A DNA stretch of 62,857 nucleotides, from contig CAIMZS010000503.1 of NCBI GenBank assembly GCA_903846015.1, forward strand, positions 1-62,857, in the 5' to 3' direction. Position 1 is the stretch's first letter, and each line of letters opens with the position of its first letter. This document shows, piece by piece, positions 3 to 6,952 of the stretch. The translations under genes and the position numbers were made by a program. This stretch comes from an uncultured Anaerolineae bacterium (lineage in GTDB: Bacteria; Chloroflexota; Anaerolineae; Anaerolineales; Villigracilaceae). The notes beneath the pieces are model-generated. The model searched no databases. It was not told the DNA's origin and worked only from the letters and a program-made list of their open reading frames with translations.

Positions 3-239
3 CTTGAAAAAACCAGCGCCTTTTTTAAGATATGGACATGCAAAGAAGCCACGCTCAAAGCAATAGGATCTGGGCTCACAAAAGAGATCAGCCAGACTGA
101 AGTTTCTTTAAATACGGATAATCAACCCCATCTGTTATGCATCGATGGTGACAAACAACTGGCTGCGGCATGGCACCTTGAATTATTTACTCCATTCGAT
201 GGTTATCAGGCTGCCCTTGCGATTGAAAGCCGAAGTTGA
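3..239 (+). CDS. 4'-phosphopantetheinyl transferase, Sfp type (C-terminal part)
   Basis: The window opens inside this gene. The frame from base 3 is open for 78 codons to a TGA at 237-239. It carries the WTCKEATLKAIGSG stretch, which matches the W-x-x-K-E-A-x-x-K-x-x-G signature of Sfp-type transferases. This family moves the phosphopantetheine arm of CoA onto acyl- or peptidyl-carrier proteins. In known enzymes the Glu and Lys of this motif bind Mg and CoA. The N-terminal half lies outside the window. It ends 31 bases before the next gene on the same strand, so the two may be cotranscribed. The family call is firm from the motif; the carrier-protein partner is not visible here. Confidence 0.8.
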   Translation, partial: LEKTSAFFKIWTCKEATLKAIGSGLTKEISQTEVSLNTDNQPHLLCIDGDKQLAAAWHLELFTPFDGYQAALAIESRS

Positions 240-270: not shown

Positions 271-2274
271 ATGTCTGAACTGGCACGACCCATAGGGATT
301 GGTTTTGCCGCGCGCGGCAAGGTTTCTGAAGTTGTTAGCTGGGCGAATGATGCCCGCCAACAAGGCCTTCATTCTGTTTGGATCCACGACAGTCTGTTTG
401 AGCGTGATGCTGTTACATATGCCACTGCCATTGCTGTGCAGGTTCCACAGATACGCATCTCGTTAGGGGCGCTTAGCGCTTATACCCGTGCTCCGGCGCT
501 TATATCCATGACCGTTTCGGCGCTTGATGAGATTGCGCCAGGCCGCATCATATTGGGAATCGGTACATCCATCCCTTTACGTCTTGCCCAGATGGGGATT
601 CCTTACAGTCCTGAAGCTGGCGTCGAAAACGTCAGCAAGGCCATTGATGTGATGCGTGCCATGTGGGCGGGCCAACGCATCCCTTCGGCTACGCCAAACC
701 TTCCACCCATTCAGCCAATGTTTCCGCCTGTTCATCGTGTCCCCATTTATATCGCGGCTTATCGCACACCTTTTCTGCAATTGGCAGGTCAAAAGGCGGA
801 TGGGTACCTGGCGCGTCCAGCCGAATCTATCCCCAATATGAAGCGATTGATTGAAAAGCTTCGTACCGCATCATTGCAAGCCGGACGTGATGAGAACGCT
901 GTCGATGTCGCTGGATACTTGCTCACCCATGTAGACAAATCACGCCGCGAAGCACTCAACCGCGCCAAGCGCGAGCCGTTCGTAATCTACATGATCAGCG
1001 TACTCTCGAACTTTTCTCTTGAGCAGGCCGGTTTTGAACCTGCCTTGCGTGATCAGATTGCTGCTGCGTGGCGGGCGGAAGATTATCATAAGGCCGCCCA
1101 ACTCATTCCAGACGAAGTCTTGGACACTTTCATGCTTTGCGGCACGCCAGAGGAAGTGGCAGAAGGCGCCGCGCATTATAACGAAGCCGGGATGACCACG
1201 CCAATTTTGCAGCCCATTCTGCAGGAAGATGATCAGATACAGAAAATTTTACATGCAGCCGGGCTTTACGGGTCAGTTGCGCTCAAGGAAGCTGCCAGAT
1301 CTGTCGCTGGAGCGCCGGTGGAAGTAATCACAAACCGTATGAACACGGCAGATCGTTTGAATCCGTTTGAACGCGCCTGGAGAAAATTCGGCGCTGCGGT
1401 TGAAATTGCCCGCCCGTTCAGCTTTACGGCATCTGCCATTCCGGTGTTGGCAGCCGCTGCCCTGGCACTGGTCGAAAATAAGTTCGAGTTTCCCTTGTTT
1501 ATCAGTTCTTTGGCTGCATCAGTTCTGCTGCATGTTGGCACAAATATTACCAATGAAATTTACGATGTCCGCAACGGCGTAGACTCGATCACATCTCCTC
1601 GCGCCAGCCAGTCGTTGTTGAAGGGTCGCCTTACTGAAAGGGATGCTTTCAACCTTACAGCAGGTTCTTTTCTCATTGCAATGTTGTTGGGAATTGCAAT
1701 GATTGCCGCTCGTGGATGGCCTGTGGCACTGCTTGGTCTGCTGGGGTTGGCACTTGGTTTTGGTTACACTGCTCCGCCATTCCAATACAAGTACCGCGCA
1801 ATGGGTCTGCCGCTTGTTTTTATCTTGATGGGTCCATTGATGGTGATTGGCTCATATTATGTTATTACTGGCAGCACGGGTCTTTCCCCGATGATTGTGA
1901 GCATCCCAATTGGGTTCCTTGTAACAGCTATTTTGCACGGCAATGAATGGCGTGATATTTCTGATGATGCCCGTTTTGGAATTGGTACTTTATCTGCGTT
2001 TATAGGCCGCAAATGGGCCCATCTGGTTTATGTCTCGCTTGTGACCGGCGCTTATTTGGCAGTGGTCTTGGGTGTGCTCTTGCATCTCCTGCCTCAAACG
2101 AGTTTGCTGGCGTTGCTATCCATGCCCTTCCTGGTGCGCTCGATCCACACTGCCGGCATGGGTGCCAATGGGCAACAGCGCTCGATTGCCAAAATTGATC
2201 TGGAAACTGCCCAGCTTCACGCGGCTTTTGGTGTTTTGTTTGTTATCGGGTTAGCTTTGGGAAAAGGTATATGA
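271..2274 (+). CDS. Luciferase-like (LLM) oxidoreductase fused to UbiA prenyltransferase
   Basis: One 667-residue frame holds two enzyme domains. Residues about 1-335 look like a luciferase-like F420/flavin-dependent oxidoreductase: a TIM-barrel start (PIGIGFAARG), then APGRIILGIG, then a closing GTPEEVAEG segment. From about residue 390 to the end the protein is very hydrophobic (eight or so membrane segments). It carries both Asp-rich UbiA motifs: NEIYDVRNGVD near residue 427 and DISDDARFG near 561. UbiA enzymes attach prenyl chains to aromatic acceptors such as quinone precursors. The ATG at 271 follows a GGGAG ribosome site. The stop overlaps the next start by 4 bases. Both domains look intact. 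The fusion suggests the oxidoreductase acts on the acceptor or product at the membrane, which is inference. Whether F420 or FMN is used cannot be told. Confidence 0.85.
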   Translation: MSELARPIGIGFAARGKVSEVVSWANDARQQGLHSVWIHDSLFERDAVTYATAIAVQVPQIRISLGALSAYTRAPALISMTVSALDEIAPGRIILGIGTSIPLRLAQMGIPYSPEAGVENVSKAIDVMRAMWAGQRIPSATPNLPPIQPMFPPVHRVPIYIAAYRTPFLQLAGQKADGYLARPAESIPNMKRLIEKLRTASLQAGRDENAVDVAGYLLTHVDKSRREALNRAKREPFVIYMISVLSNFSLEQAGFEPALRDQIAAAWRAEDYHKAAQLIPDEVLDTFMLCGTPEEVAEGAAHYNEAGMTTPILQPILQEDDQIQKILHAAGLYGSVALKEAARSVAGAPVEVITNRMNTADRLNPFERAWRKFGAAVEIARPFSFTASAIPVLAAAALALVENKFEFPLFISSLAASVLLHVGTNITNEIYDVRNGVDSITSPRASQSLLKGRLTERDAFNLTAGSFLIAMLLGIAMIAARGWPVALLGLLGLALGFGYTAPPFQYKYRAMGLPLVFILMGPLMVIGSYYVITGSTGLSPMIVSIPIGFLVTAILHGNEWRDISDDARFGIGTLSAFIGRKWAHLVYVSLVTGAYLAVVLGVLLHLLPQTSLLALLSMPFLVRSIHTAGMGANGQQRSIAKIDLETAQLHAAFGVLFVIGLALGKGI

Positions 2275-2909
2275 AAAAATCGAAGAGTTTGCTTGTTTTT
2301 GGCGCAGCACTCGCATTTGGTTTGTTTGGGCTGACATTCCGCGGCCCAAAGAAAAGGTTTTGGGATCGAATGACCGGAACCGGACTTTCTCTCGGATCTT
2401 TGGCTCTGGTTTCTCAGCCAAAGCTGCGCGAGACCCGTATCGGGATCAAGGATATTCTCCTTGGTCTTGGGTCTGCTGCGGTATTGTATGGGATATTCCA
2501 CATTGGTGATCAGATTTCACGCAAAATCGTTCCAAATGGCGGGCAGCAGATTGATGATATTTACAAACTTAAACGCATTCGCCCACGCAAAGAATTAATG
2601 ACTCGCTTGGCGTTGGTGATTGGTCCGGCAGAAGAATTATTCTGGCGCGGCTTTTTACAGGATGGTTTGATGGATCGCTTCGGCAGGTTTTGGGGTTGGC
2701 TCCTCGGGACTGTATCTTATGGTGGTGCCCATATCGTCAGTGGCAATTTTACTCTGGTTGGCGCGGCGACCGTCGCGGGTGGTTTTTGGGGAGGGCTGTA
2801 TGCGCTTGGCGTACCGCTTGGCGCTTTGATTGTCAGTCACATTGTATGGGATAATCTGATCTTTCTGATCGCCCCAACCTCCAGGCTCGAAGAAGAATTA
2901 ATTTCATGA
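2271..2909 (+). CDS. CPBP-family intramembrane glutamic protease
   Basis: This 212-residue membrane protein belongs to the CPBP (CAAX protease and bacteriocin-processing) family. The signature EELFWRGF begins near residue 120, giving the EE-x-x-x-R motif. A later SHIVWDN near 189-195 supplies the conserved His and the Asn/Asp region. Four to six hydrophobic segments are visible. In eukaryotes the related Rce1 cleaves prenylated proteins, while bacterial members mature peptides or act in stress control. It starts within the stop of the oxidoreductase-UbiA gene (ATGA overlap), so the two are translationally coupled. A prenyl-related role is tempting from that pairing but unproven. Confidence 0.85.
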   Translation: MKKSKSLLVFGAALAFGLFGLTFRGPKKRFWDRMTGTGLSLGSLALVSQPKLRETRIGIKDILLGLGSAAVLYGIFHIGDQISRKIVPNGGQQIDDIYKLKRIRPRKELMTRLALVIGPAEELFWRGFLQDGLMDRFGRFWGWLLGTVSYGGAHIVSGNFTLVGAATVAGGFWGGLYALGVPLGALIVSHIVWDNLIFLIAPTSRLEEELIS

Positions 2910-3171: not shown

Positions 3172-4914
3172 ATGAAAATAAACCGTTTGTTTGTGTTTGT
3201 TATGCTTGTGGCAATTCTGATTCCTGCCCTGGCAGGCTGTGCGCCCGCCGCAACCGCTGTGCCAGCCGCCCCAGCCGCAACTGCTGCCCCCGCTGCCACC
3301 TCGGCCCCTGCCGCAGCCACTGAAGTACCCGCCCCGGCCGCCACTGCTGCCCCAGCTTCTGGTGGCACCCTTGTGATTGCCATGAATCTGGACGATGTTG
3401 TCACGCTTGATCCTGCTTACGCGGGTGAGACCACCAACCTGTTCATTCACATTAACACCTATGACACTCTCGTTGACATTCGCCCTGAGGATTTGAACAC
3501 CATTGTTCCTCGATTGGCTGAGAAATGGGATGTCAATGCGGATTTTACAGAATTCGTTTTCCATCTGCGCAAGGATGCTAAATTTGCATCCGGCAACCCG
3601 GTCACCGCTCAGGACGTAGTTTTCTCATGGAACCGTCTGCTCAATGTGGCAGGCGCCCCGGCGTTTAATTTGGATGGCGTTGGTAAAGTTGAAGCAGTGG
3701 ATGATTACACCGTCAAGGTTTCGACCACTGTCACCGATGGCAAGGCTCAACCGCTGCCCCAATTCCTGTCCAGCGCTAGCAATCCCAGCCTGGGCATCCA
3801 GGATTCCAAGCTGGTTAAAGAACATGGTGGTACTGATGCCGCCGATGCCAAAACCACCGACAAGGCCAAGGAATGGTTGGATCAGAATTCGGCTGGCTCG
3901 GGTCCATTCATTCTCACCAAGTGGTCGCCTAAAGCAGATATTGAATTGACTGCCAATAAAAACTATTGGAAAGGCGTTCCCAAGTTTGACAAAGTTGTCA
4001 TTACTCATGTATCTGACCCCACCACCAAGCTGCAGATGTTGGATCGTGGGGATGTGGATATGATTGATTCCCTCAGCAGTGATCTGGTGGAAAATGCCAA
4101 GGCTAATCCAGATATTGTCATATCGGTGGACCAATCACTCGATGAAAACTACCTTGCCATGACTTATGTCTGCCCCGATGTTATCAAGGCCAAGGATCCC
4201 GAGAAATTCAAAGCGCTGCAAAGCCCTGATTCGTTCGCCATCCTGTGCAAAAAGGAAGTTCGCCAGGCAGTAGCGTACGCGATTGATTACGAGGGCATTA
4301 CCAAGGCTGTTTTGAATGGTTATGGTACTCGCGCCCCCAGCATTATTCCGATCGGCATCATCGGAGTCGATCCATCCAAAACCCAGGGCCGCGATCTGGC
4401 CAAGGCCAAGGAGCTTCTGACCGCCGCGGGTTATCCGAATGGCGTCACGTTCGATCTTTATTACGCTTCCAACTCTACCCGTGATACCGTTGCTGCCAAA
4501 ATAAAGAACGATTTGGCTGAAGCCGGCATTACTCTCAACCTTAAGCCACTCGAGCAGAGCGTTTACCTGACGCAGATGCGTGCTCAGCAGCTCCCGATGG
4601 CATTCGGTGGTTGGACGCCAGATTATCTGGATGTGACCATGTGGACCGATTACTTTGGTCTGGGTGATCGTTCGATTGCCTTCCGCATGAATTTCATGAA
4701 TCCAGATGCCAATAAGCTTGCAACCTTGATACGCACAACTTCCGATCCTGCTGTTCGCAAGGATGCTGTGGAGAAGTTACAGGCAGTCTTCATCGAAGAA
4801 ATGCCGTTCACCATGCTCTATCAATCCCAGTACATCCATGCTTTCCGCAAAGATTTGCAAGGTTTTAAATTCCATCCGGTCTGGTTTGTAGACCTGTTTG
4901 GGCTGTCTAAGTAA
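3172..4914 (+). CDS. ABC transporter substrate-binding lipoprotein, peptide/nickel family 5
   Basis: This is the extracytoplasmic receptor of an oligopeptide-type ABC importer. A lipoprotein signal ends in LAGC, making Cys23 the lipidated residue. Residues 24 to about 63 form an Ala/Pro-rich linker of repeated PAA, AAT and TAAPA units, presumably a stalk. The family 5 fold follows, with typical phrases such as FHLRKDAKFASG (about residue 127), AVAYAIDYEGI and AAGYPNGV. The length of 580 is usual for the family. A strong AGGAGG site precedes the ATG. Two permease genes follow. The ligand cannot be read from sequence; di- or oligopeptides are the family default. Confidence 0.92.
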   Translation: MKINRLFVFVMLVAILIPALAGCAPAATAVPAAPAATAAPAATSAPAAATEVPAPAATAAPASGGTLVIAMNLDDVVTLDPAYAGETTNLFIHINTYDTLVDIRPEDLNTIVPRLAEKWDVNADFTEFVFHLRKDAKFASGNPVTAQDVVFSWNRLLNVAGAPAFNLDGVGKVEAVDDYTVKVSTTVTDGKAQPLPQFLSSASNPSLGIQDSKLVKEHGGTDAADAKTTDKAKEWLDQNSAGSGPFILTKWSPKADIELTANKNYWKGVPKFDKVVITHVSDPTTKLQMLDRGDVDMIDSLSSDLVENAKANPDIVISVDQSLDENYLAMTYVCPDVIKAKDPEKFKALQSPDSFAILCKKEVRQAVAYAIDYEGITKAVLNGYGTRAPSIIPIGIIGVDPSKTQGRDLAKAKELLTAAGYPNGVTFDLYYASNSTRDTVAAKIKNDLAEAGITLNLKPLEQSVYLTQMRAQQLPMAFGGWTPDYLDVTMWTDYFGLGDRSIAFRMNFMNPDANKLATLIRTTSDPAVRKDAVEKLQAVFIEEMPFTMLYQSQYIHAFRKDLQGFKFHPVWFVDLFGLSK

Positions 4915-4929
4915 TTCGTTTGATTGTGC

Positions 4930-4955
4930 TTGGGGCGGGTTAATTTCCGCCCCAA
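4930..4955 (+). terminator. Hairpin after the binding-protein gene (intra-operon terminator)
   Basis: A perfect 9-bp stem TTGGGGCGG / CCGCCCCAA with an 8-base loop lies 15 bases after the binding-protein stop and is followed by TTTATTTCT. It looks like a partial Rho-independent terminator. In binding-protein operons such an element lets the receptor be made in excess of the permeases. That role is an inference. Confidence 0.65.
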
Positions 4956-4980
4956 TTTATTTCTCGTTATCCGGTCCAAA

Positions 4981-5018
4981 CCCATCTGGTAATTTGCCTG
5001 GCCAAATCACCAGATGGG
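4981..5018. repeat. Long inverted repeat before the first permease gene
   Basis: CCCATCTGGT at 4981-4990 pairs with ACCAGATGGG at 5009-5018. After one mismatch, ATTTG/CAAAT extends the stem, leaving a 6-base loop (CCTGGC). There is no T-run after it. It lies right behind the terminator-like hairpin, 32 bases before the permease start, so it may protect mRNA ends or bind a regulator. Confidence 0.6.
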
Positions 5019-5050
5019 TCGACTTCGAAAATTGTGGAAGGCGAAAAACG

Positions 5051-6070
5051 ATGAGTCTGATCCAGCACCTTACGAGACGCCTGCTTCTAATGATCCCAAT
5101 GGCGATTGGCATAACCTTGCTGCTTTTCGTGGTGACACACATTGTGCCGGTAAATCCCCTTGCAGTGATCCTGACCGAAAGGTCAATGGATGATCCCGAT
5201 GCAGTTAAAGCTGCAACGGAAAAATGGGCGTTGGATAAACCTTTGCCAGAACAGTATCTCATTTATTTAAAAAACCTGCTTCAAGGTGATATGGGTACTT
5301 CCTTTAAGACAAAGAACCCGGTCGCGTCAGATTTGAAAAACTTCCTACCTGCCACAATAGAACTTTCCATCGGGTCTTTTATTTTTGCAATCCTGATTGG
5401 CTTGCCTTTGGGAATCATCTCCGCTATCAAGGCGGGCAGTTTTATCGATCAATTTACCCGGGTTATTTCCCTTCTGGGTGCTTCCATGCCGCCTTTCTGG
5501 TCGGGGTTATTGATGTTATTCGTTTTTTATTACAAACTGGGATGGGCCCCTGGCCCTGGTCGTATTAATTCACGTTTGGGCGCTCCAGAATCTGTCACTG
5601 GCCTATTTGTTTTTGATTCGCTGCTGAAGGGCAACATGCCAGCCTTTTGGAATTCCTTGAGCCATCTCGTCTTGCCGTCCATCATTTTGGGTTGGTTTAC
5701 GCTGGCATTGATCGCGCGCATCACTCGTTCTTCAATGTTGGAAGTTCTTTCACAGGATTATATTCGCACAGCCCGGGCCAAAGGCCTGGCTGAAAAATGG
5801 GTTATCATCTCCCATGCGCTTCGCAATACCCTTATCCCGCTGGTTACATTGGTTGGTCTGGCGTTTGCCGGTCTGATGAGTGGCGCCATCATGACAGAGA
5901 CGATATTTTCCTGGCCAGGGATTGGTCGATATGCAGTCGAGGCCGCCGCCAACCTGGACTATCCGGCTATCGCTGGTGTCACCCTGCTGATCGCCATTAT
6001 CTATATGCTGGTGAATATTTTTGTGGATGCGCTTTATACCATTATTGATCCTCGTATTCGGGAAGGATAA
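5051..6070 (+). CDS. ABC transporter permease, DppB/OppB type
   Basis: This 339-residue inner-membrane subunit has an N-terminal anchor (RRLLLMIPMAIGITLLLF), a periplasmic region and about five further membrane spans. The EAA-type coupling segment is recognisable as YIRTARAKGL followed by ALRNTLIPLV, which in the family contacts the ATPase. The start chosen is the ATG at 5051, with a GGAAGG site just upstream. An upstream in-frame ATG at 4898 would place the two hairpins inside the coding region and has no family-like sequence. It forms the first half of the transport channel with the gene that follows 3 bases later. Confidence 0.92.
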   Translation: MSLIQHLTRRLLLMIPMAIGITLLLFVVTHIVPVNPLAVILTERSMDDPDAVKAATEKWALDKPLPEQYLIYLKNLLQGDMGTSFKTKNPVASDLKNFLPATIELSIGSFIFAILIGLPLGIISAIKAGSFIDQFTRVISLLGASMPPFWSGLLMLFVFYYKLGWAPGPGRINSRLGAPESVTGLFVFDSLLKGNMPAFWNSLSHLVLPSIILGWFTLALIARITRSSMLEVLSQDYIRTARAKGLAEKWVIISHALRNTLIPLVTLVGLAFAGLMSGAIMTETIFSWPGIGRYAVEAAANLDYPAIAGVTLLIAIIYMLVNIFVDALYTIIDPRIREG

Positions 6071-6073
6071 AAC

Positions 6074-6952
6074 ATGGCTGTCGCAAAGCTTTCTCAAATC
6101 CCGCTTCCAAAAACCGCTGCCAGCCCTAACCAGCGGCGGCTGCGCGCATTGCGCCATAACCCAATGGCCATGATTGGTTTATTTATTATCCTGTTTTGGG
6201 CTGTTGCGGCAGTTATTGCCCCTTTTACATCGATGCGTGATCCTCTTGCTCAGATGATCGGTGACAGGCTGAAGCCACCCTCATCCCAGTATTTATTTGG
6301 TACGGATGAACTGGGCCGCGATGTATTCAGTCGTGTGATATACGGCGCGCGTATTTCTTTACCGATCGGTTTTATAGTCATTATTTTCGCCATGACGATG
6401 GGTTCGCTGGTTGGCGCGTCTGCTGGTTATATTGGCGGCATGTATGACTTGTTGGTCATGCGCCTGGCAGATATTACCCTGGCATTTCCCTCGATTGTGT
6501 TGGCATTGGCTATAGCCGCCGTACTGGGTCCAAGTATCACAAATGCGCTCATCGCGATGGTGTTGGTTTGGTGGCCGGAATATGCTCGACTGATGCGTAG
6601 CCAGGTGTTGAGCGTCAAGAACAATGAATACGTCACGGCAGCGGTTGCGATCGGTATACCGGGCAGCCGAATTCTTACGCATCATATTCTTCCCAATACC
6701 TTTGCGCCCATCCTGGTCAAGGCCTCCCTGGATGCGGGCAGCGCTATTCTTAATATTGCTGCGCTTAGTTTTATTGGCCTGGGCGCTGTTCCTCCCACAC
6801 CTGAATGGGGTGCCATGATCTCAACCGGCCGTTATCAGTTCTATAGCTGGTGGTTGACTACCTTTCCAGGTCTGGCCATTCTTTTGGTGGTTTTAGGGTA
6901 CAACTTCTTCGGGGAAGGTGTGCGCGACTCTTTTGATCCGCGTATGACTTGA
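6074..6952 (+). CDS. ABC transporter permease, DppC/OppC type
   Basis: This 292-residue subunit has a short cytoplasmic start, a first membrane span (NPMAMIGLFIILFWAVAAVI), the family phrase FGTDELGRDVFSRVIYGARISL near residue 78, then four or five more spans. The EAA loop is near residues 187-210 (EYVTAAVAIG and HHILPNT). The ATG at 6074 follows GGAAGG. It pairs with the DppB-type permease. The operon stops here: no DppD/DppF ATPase genes follow before the convergent alanine racemase gene 17 bases on. The ATPases must be encoded elsewhere. Confidence 0.92.
   Translation: MAVAKLSQIPLPKTAASPNQRRLRALRHNPMAMIGLFIILFWAVAAVIAPFTSMRDPLAQMIGDRLKPPSSQYLFGTDELGRDVFSRVIYGARISLPIGFIVIIFAMTMGSLVGASAGYIGGMYDLLVMRLADITLAFPSIVLALAIAAVLGPSITNALIAMVLVWWPEYARLMRSQVLSVKNNEYVTAAVAIGIPGSRILTHHILPNTFAPILVKASLDAGSAILNIAALSFIGLGAVPPTPEWGAMISTGRYQFYSWWLTTFPGLAILLVVLGYNFFGEGVRDSFDPRMT

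Follow-up and report, generated by a model that had tools for sequence, protein, structure and literature searches.

A conserved luciferase-like/UbiA fusion gene coupled to a CPBP protease homologue in Chloroflexota and Dormibacterota may encode an F420-linked quinone prenyltransferase

What kind of pathway would carry an oxidoreductase and a prenyltransferase on one polypeptide? The question is raised by contig CAIMZS010000503.1 of an uncultured Anaerolineae bacterium (assembly GCA_903846015.1; 62,857 nucleotides, the whole of which is called the window here), where positions 271-2909 of the plus strand encode a luciferase-like (LLM) oxidoreductase domain fused to a UbiA prenyltransferase domain, followed by a homologue of the CPBP-family glutamic-type intramembrane proteases. 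Our analysis revealed that this pair is a conserved two-gene module, and we give a probability of about one half to the reading that it encodes an F420-linked prenyltransferase for a quinone, or for a very quinone-like prenylated aromatic, together with a dedicated CPBP partner.

The fusion gene (271..2274, plus strand, as are all module features) is a single open frame of 667 amino acids with an ATG start. Pfam Bac_luciferase (PF00296) covers residues 17-309 (319..1197; E 8e-47, 160.5 bits against a gathering score of 27.9) and UbiA (PF01040) residues 390-622 (1438..2136; E 2e-28, 99.7 bits against 34.2). Both acidic motifs of the UbiA family are present, namely N425..N428-E429..D432..D438 (1543..1584) and N558-E-W-R-D562-x-x-x-D566 (1942..1968), and the motif positions, in the second N558, E559, W560, R561, D562 and D566, are invariant in all 70 near-complete aligned rows. 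The first motif has the form N-E-x-x-D; many UbiA proteins have N-D-x-x-D. The first-pass annotation, which had claimed one chain joining an LLM oxidoreductase to a UbiA enzyme complete with both motifs, is thus borne out. The linker, set at residues 323-377 (1237..1401) from the 70-row alignment and the model confidence, varies from 41 to 106 residues. An AlphaFold model built on a 39-sequence alignment has a mean confidence (pLDDT) of 84.6 and a pTM of 0.65, with residues 347-360 below a pLDDT of 50, and we propose that the tether between the two halves is flexible.

A scan of a genome collection of 84,980 species returned 75 loci, one of which (L082) was dropped as unrelated, being 30% identical over part of the LLM half; the other 74 carry the fusion. 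The 38 aligned proteins from these loci are 47-78% identical to that of the window. By title, the hosts are Chloroflexi/Chloroflexota, Anaerolineae, Dehalococcoidia and Dormibacterota, thus mostly Chloroflexota and Dormibacterota, with a few genomes called Actinobacteria, Frankiales or Acidobacteriota and some named just 'bacterium'. We examined the relatives for split or unlinked halves and for breaks between the domains. In 67 of the 74 loci the match runs from residue 15 or earlier to residue 640 or later inside one open reading frame (ORF); three fusions are cut by a contig end (L071, L072, L080), one match begins at residue 18 (L027), two end at residues 631 and 620 (L015 and L051), and in L074 the frame breaks within the LLM half. 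No stop or frameshift was found at the LLM/UbiA junction in any of the 74 loci. An assembly artefact joining two genes is ruled out, since the fusion occurs at 74 other loci and each half forms one clade among the sampled rows. At close range the distribution is patchy: of 61 genomes from the order to which the window belongs, only that of the window itself (G000), G001, G013, G014 and, with two pieces, G016 have the fusion. The G016 pieces (G016:C12:45219-45817) correspond to residues 1-131 and 560-640 and lie about 0.2 kb from a partial UbiE match; we read this copy as decaying or misassembled. The coordinates in G001, G013 and G014 equal those in G063, G064 and G065, which in all likelihood means identical assemblies; the 80 genome handles used below therefore stand for about 77 genomes.

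The second gene of the module (2271..2909) encodes a CPBP homologue of 212 amino acids, matched by the Rce1-like family PF02517 with E 6e-12 and 46.2 bits against a gathering score of 22.4. Its residues of catalytic type, in the EExxxR motif (E121, E122, R126; 2631..2648), Y150xxxH154 and H190xxxD194, are invariant in 72 of 72 rows, the window included; in none of the nine NCBIfam families listed for it does the protein reach the cut-off. Its frame overlaps that of the fusion gene by an ATGA stop/start (2271..2274), as the first-pass annotation had stated, and the same spacing of -3 occurs in L008 and L011. In the window and in 71 of the 74 loci the fusion is followed by a CPBP homologue with the same orientation; if the nearest in-frame start is taken, 66 of these 72 homologues begin no more than 100 bases from the stop codon of the fusion. 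The three remaining loci are L010, with no CPBP gene in about 5.6 kb downstream, L017, with none in the available 1.26 kb, and L072, where the contig ends inside the fusion. We also considered CPBP as a third fused domain and rejected this, since the CPBP gene of L018, L027 and L079 lies in another frame. L051 reads through from fusion to CPBP in one frame; there the end of the UbiA domain is missing, and a deletion is likelier than a triple fusion. Rce1-type relatives of the CPBP family act on prenylated proteins.

The UbiA half resembles the menaquinone enzyme MenA (1,4-dihydroxy-2-naphthoate polyprenyltransferase). In a tree of 67 rows the 13 fused domains form one clade (support 100/99), placed outside the MenA clade as the sister of that clade, which holds E. 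coli MenA and the relatives' stand-alone MenAs; the joining branch has moderate support (90/76). The nearest solved chain is UBIAD1 (8djk, E 1.9e-33 in a profile search). Among the best 25 of 41 families, the fusion falls under every MenA cut-off (NF004749, 166 against 277; TIGR00751, 72.3 against 102.15), and all four stand-alone proteins scanned, from G000, G018, G065 and G083, pass them. Our reading is that this half probably works like a MenA-type enzyme without being MenA by the cut-off and clade tests.

The LLM half resembles methylenetetrahydromethanopterin reductase (Mer), an F420-dependent enzyme. The eight best Foldseek matches in the PDB are all Mer (TMt 0.80-0.89; 8qq8 and 1z69 at 0.88-0.89); next come FGD and Adf, which also depend on F420, and FMN enzymes first appear at rank 28. 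The modelled fold is the TIM barrel expected of luciferase-like oxidoreductases. In a profile search Mer (1z69) was matched with E 2.7e-40, and the best LLM protein other than Mer with 5.5e-16. In NCBIfam the best match of this half is likewise Mer (PRK02271), followed by other F420 families; the two Mer equivalog cut-offs are not reached (146 bits against 276, and 134.5 against 348.7), nor is any other cut-off among the best 25 of 41 families. Since the best structural, profile and NCBIfam matches are F420 enzymes, this half is likely F420-dependent. In a tree of 40 rows the fused LLM domains form one clade (99/100), separate from the LLM proteins encoded next to cofD, so that derivation from the latter is ruled out. 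Several groups recur in both trees (the window, L010 and L014; L056 and L065; L026, L036 and L031; L019, L022, L047 and L077), and L070 is placed differently. Within the sampled rows the shared groupings fit a single fusion event followed by common descent.

The gene neighbourhood gives an indication of the substrate. In seven of the 74 loci a gene for the methyltransferase UbiE/MenG (ubiE) lies directly beside the fusion or the two-gene module; in L008 and L009 it comes third in the operon, and in L037, L050, L067, L070 and L073 it is divergently oriented. The L009 protein passes TIGR01934 (206.9 against 158.35), and Pfam assigns the L050 copy to Ubie_methyltran. In seven unfused relatives (G017, G018, G020, G023, G026, G030 and G036) the slot beside UbiE is taken by a stand-alone MenA-clade protein. 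We also compiled the 141 nearest neighbours of the fusion loci, of which 127 (100-599 amino acids) were searched with Pfam. UbiE (6 genes) is the sole quinone-synthesis family among the 25 commonest of 67 neighbour families considered; other common neighbours are GNAT (15), other methyltransferases, GltX, citrate synthase and sigma factors, and a larger conserved operon was not found among these neighbours. L009 also offers a link to F420: on one strand lie, in this order, npdG, cofE, a PNPOx-like gene, an fbiB-C-like gene (under its cut-off), an unnamed gene, cofD, cofC, an LLM gene, the fusion, the CPBP gene and ubiE.

We then asked which quinone genes accompany the fusion. The genome of the window and those of 42 of the 74 others (43 fused genomes) were searched for UbiA, CofD, UbiE, PF00146, MenB and MqnC; the search for MenD and PF02621 (MqnA/MqnD) covered these and 37 of 60 relatives (80 handles). 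The fused genomes encode CofD over the cut-off in 35 cases, UbiE in 37 (within about 3 kb of the fusion in five, G061, G062, G085, G096 and G098) and PF00146, of the NuoH type that also occurs in hydrogenases, in 42. MenD was found in just one of the 43 and MenB over its cut-off in two; for comparison, MenD was matched in six of 33 unfused relatives (the 37 minus G001, G013, G014 and G016) and in seven of 14 named control genomes including E. coli. MqnC was over its cut-off in none of the 43, and PF02621 had no match in any of the 80 handles; it was matched in four of the 14 controls, including Thermus and Deinobacterium. Nine fused genomes hold MqnC matches of 306-349 bits, under the cut-off of 428, which we read as FbiC-type radical SAM proteins since they lie in frames of 660-1000 amino acids, near CofD in G072 and G096. 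The futalosine route was therefore rejected. Three genomes (G069, G089 and G102) contain exactly two UbiA matches, a heme O synthase (323-334 bits in TIGR01473, cut-off 210) and the fusion, together with UbiE over the cut-off and PF00146. If a quinone is present in these organisms, the fusion is the sole candidate prenyltransferase found for it.

From this we infer the following mechanism, in which F420 binding, the substrate, the direction of the redox step and the role of the protease are all conjectural. Working at the membrane in the manner of MenA, the UbiA half would link an aromatic headgroup to a polyprenyl chain, and the Mer-like half would transfer hydride between coenzyme F420 and that headgroup. 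In the version that we prefer, F420H2 would hold the prenylated naphtho- or benzoquinone as the quinol, the form needed by the UbiE/MenG methyltransferase. The CPBP protein may be a membrane protease homologue working with, or on, the fusion enzyme. The first-pass annotation had suggested a membrane pathway in which an aromatic or lipid substrate is prenylated and reduced; the MenA-sister position, UbiE beside the module in seven of 74 loci and the Mer-like LLM half favour such a pathway with a quinone-type substrate. A more tentative possibility, doubtful for now, is that Chloroflexota and Dormibacterota lacking both known menaquinone pathways make isoprenoid quinones, perhaps with a new headgroup, by an F420-linked pathway not yet described, of which the fusion would be the hallmark; the LLM half would then carry out a redox step on the headgroup that has no counterpart in known quinone pathways.

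Several observations weigh against an F420-linked quinone prenyltransferase. CofD over the cut-off is missing from eight of the 43 fused genomes (G068, G069, G075, G076, G078, G081, G084 and G099), one of which, G069, is among the three whose only other UbiA match is a heme O synthase; the fusion proteins from G078, G081 and G084 form a common branch. By a recount, CofD and UbiE are also encoded by 45 and 42 of 56 unfused relatives, respectively, so that their co-occurrence does not single out the fusion, and we gave up treating it as proof of function. The F420-operon link was seen in L009 only, and most loci have no informative neighbour: BLAST (E 1e-15) of the 67 loci other than the seven with UbiE, for UbiE, F420 genes, MenB/D/F, stand-alone MenA and an NMT1-type binding protein, yielded nothing beyond a weak methyltransferase match (L053) and a second UbiA (L020). 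All 74 fusion-bearing relatives are, by title, metagenome-assembled genomes. Finally, a stand-alone MenA-clade protein occurs in addition to the fusion in seven genomes (G000, G063, G064, G065, G066, G083 and G091), the genome of the window itself encoding both MenA (C373) and UbiE (C560); in these seven the fusion may use another substrate, and in that of the window it may make a second product. This coexistence, the failed MenA cut-offs and the 67 of 74 loci with no UbiE beside the fusion would suit an enzyme whose prenylated product is no respiratory quinone but e.g. a lipid, a pigment or an antioxidant aromatic, with the UbiE neighbourhood being incidental. We regard this as unlikely, given the sister position to MenA, the adjacency of UbiE in several lineages, and the three genomes G069, G089 and G102, where UbiE and PF00146 are present and no other non-heme UbiA was found.

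The scarcity of headgroup genes has a different possible explanation, which we rate as rather improbable. The hosts might scavenge a headgroup precursor such as dihydroxynaphthoate from their neighbours; ordinary menaquinone would then be completed by the fusion and UbiE, in some cases along with MenA, and the F420 half would do no more than reduce the imported or prenylated compound. The retention of UbiE in 37 of 43 fused genomes beside MenD in one, MenB in two and MqnA/MqnD in none agrees with this, as does a putative three-gene ABC transporter beside MenA/UbiE in G018, G023 and G065, which lack MenD; the binding protein in G018 is NMT1/THI5-like. Use of exogenous quinones is reported for L. 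plantarum and gut bacteria (PMC10746273, PMC5738691). Scavenging would, however, require such dependence across many lineages of soil, groundwater and sediment, it leaves the fusion to an LLM domain unexplained, and BLAST (E 1e-15) detected no NMT1-type binding protein next to the fusion. An ABC ATPase does recur near the fusion (cluster 6, 17 genes), but the one member scanned has a DrrA-type, export-like C terminus. Least probable of the explanations considered is that the LLM half binds FMN and not F420, acting as an O2-dependent monooxygenase or hydroxylase of the headgroup as in ubiquinone synthesis. LLM proteins do include FMN monooxygenases, the eight genomes with no CofD over the cut-off would fit, and the heme O synthase of G069, G089 and G102 suggests that these organisms may be aerobic. 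Such monooxygenases stand lower in the match lists (8t0u in the profile search), though, below Mer and other F420 enzymes, the best NCBIfam matches are F420 families, and the F420 cluster of L009 runs into the fusion.

Upstream of the module the window begins with the C-terminal 78 amino acids of a phosphopantetheinyl transferase (3..239, plus strand; ACPS superfamily, Pfam E 1e-10), cut by the contig start and judged not to belong to the module. On its account the first-pass annotation had considered assembly on a carrier protein. We rejected such a pathway, since tblastn (E 0.1) found no match to the fragment in any relative's locus, some of which are short of upstream sequence; no search was aimed at carrier-protein genes. 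Downstream, positions 3172-6952 (plus strand) encode an SBP_bac_5 solute-binding protein and, in two further ORFs, apparent ABC permeases, none with a match among the relatives' ORFs. Candidate quinone-precursor importers, the putative ABC transporter genes beside stand-alone MenA and UbiE, lie at L157:7827-10465 (minus strand) and also in L159 and L132. One neighbour in L011 also hints at quinones, being QrcD/NrfD-like, under the cut-off (228.7 against 570).

Further UbiA proteins were noticed on the way. In L010, the close relative of the window locus that lacks CPBP, the fusion stands head to head with another UbiA protein, divergent and MenA-like (L010:1621-2655, minus strand; 94 bits against 277). 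This protein falls in a UbiA clade of 14 rows, members of which form tandem pairs in G000 (C249) and G061 (C17). A second UbiA protein downstream of the fusion in UBA5176 (L020:5292-7205, plus strand) has its UbiA domain at residues 344-584; its residues from about 180 to 325 look like a PNPOx/FDOR split barrel, which would make it another oxidoreductase-UbiA fusion, Pfam having returned UbiA only. It groups (98/92), outside the MenA and fusion clades, with a protein of unfused G012 in which a PAS domain is fused to UbiA (L158:6688-8037, minus strand), beside the LLM gene, cofC and cofD of an F420 cluster. Unfused G017 has F420 genes and an LLM gene followed, after one other gene, by those for isochorismate synthase, MenD, MenB and MenE (L162:3-13999, plus strand), and in unfused G019 UbiE comes after the F420 cluster; F420 and quinone genes thus stand together in some members of the order even where the fusion is absent. 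Some soil Chloroflexota with the fusion (L180, L181, L182 and L193) have UbiE followed by an AMP-dependent acyl-CoA ligase, with an acyl-CoA dehydrogenase in between in three of the four; UbiE there faces a cluster 7 protein, the L180 copy of which had no Pfam match.

The module may offer a way into a quinone pathway that is still missing, since its hosts seem to be without the tested genes of known menaquinone synthesis. A survey published in 2026 and covering 26,264 genomes of bacteria places lineages without known quinone pathways mostly in Bacillota and Chloroflexota, and adds that several such lineages may be fermentative and need none, and that other quinones may await discovery (PMC13386864). 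With an F420-type domain and a MenA-type prenyltransferase in such organisms, the module gives this question a testable gene. In the open-licence literature we found nothing tying a CPBP intramembrane protease to a UbiA prenyltransferase, on UbiA together with a luciferase-like fusion only work on M. abscessus biofilms, by title, and on F420 together with menaquinone, luciferase-like proteins and MenA three papers, a review of F420 among them.

Compared with known systems, the fusion shares with MenA the acidic motifs, the neighbouring clade and, in several genomes, the slot beside UbiE/MenG; MenA differs in having no LLM domain attached, and the stand-alone MenAs scanned pass the cut-offs that the fusion fails. 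With Mer it shares the fold of the LLM half (TMt 0.88) and the best sequence match, at about 25% identity, but that half is under the Mer cut-offs and is tethered to the membrane by the fusion. The CPBP protein has the EExxxR, H154 and H190xxxD194 common to the CPBP/Rce1-like glutamic intramembrane proteases, from which it differs as the partner of a prenyltransferase fusion and by its scores under the NCBIfam cut-offs. Methyl-plastoquinone is, according to the same survey, a recently found quinone of a Nitrospirota lineage (PMC13386864); compared with its pathway, the UbiE of L009 falls under the MpqE cut-off (158 against 335). A precedent for F420H2 acting on menaquinone is Ddn, the F420H2-dependent menaquinone reductase (FDOR-A) of actinobacteria (PMC8498797). 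Ddn is a split beta-barrel with no prenyltransferase attached, whereas the LLM half of the fusion is a TIM barrel; if F420-dependent, it would be a membrane-tethered LLM member and a second fold, besides that of Ddn, linking F420 to quinones.

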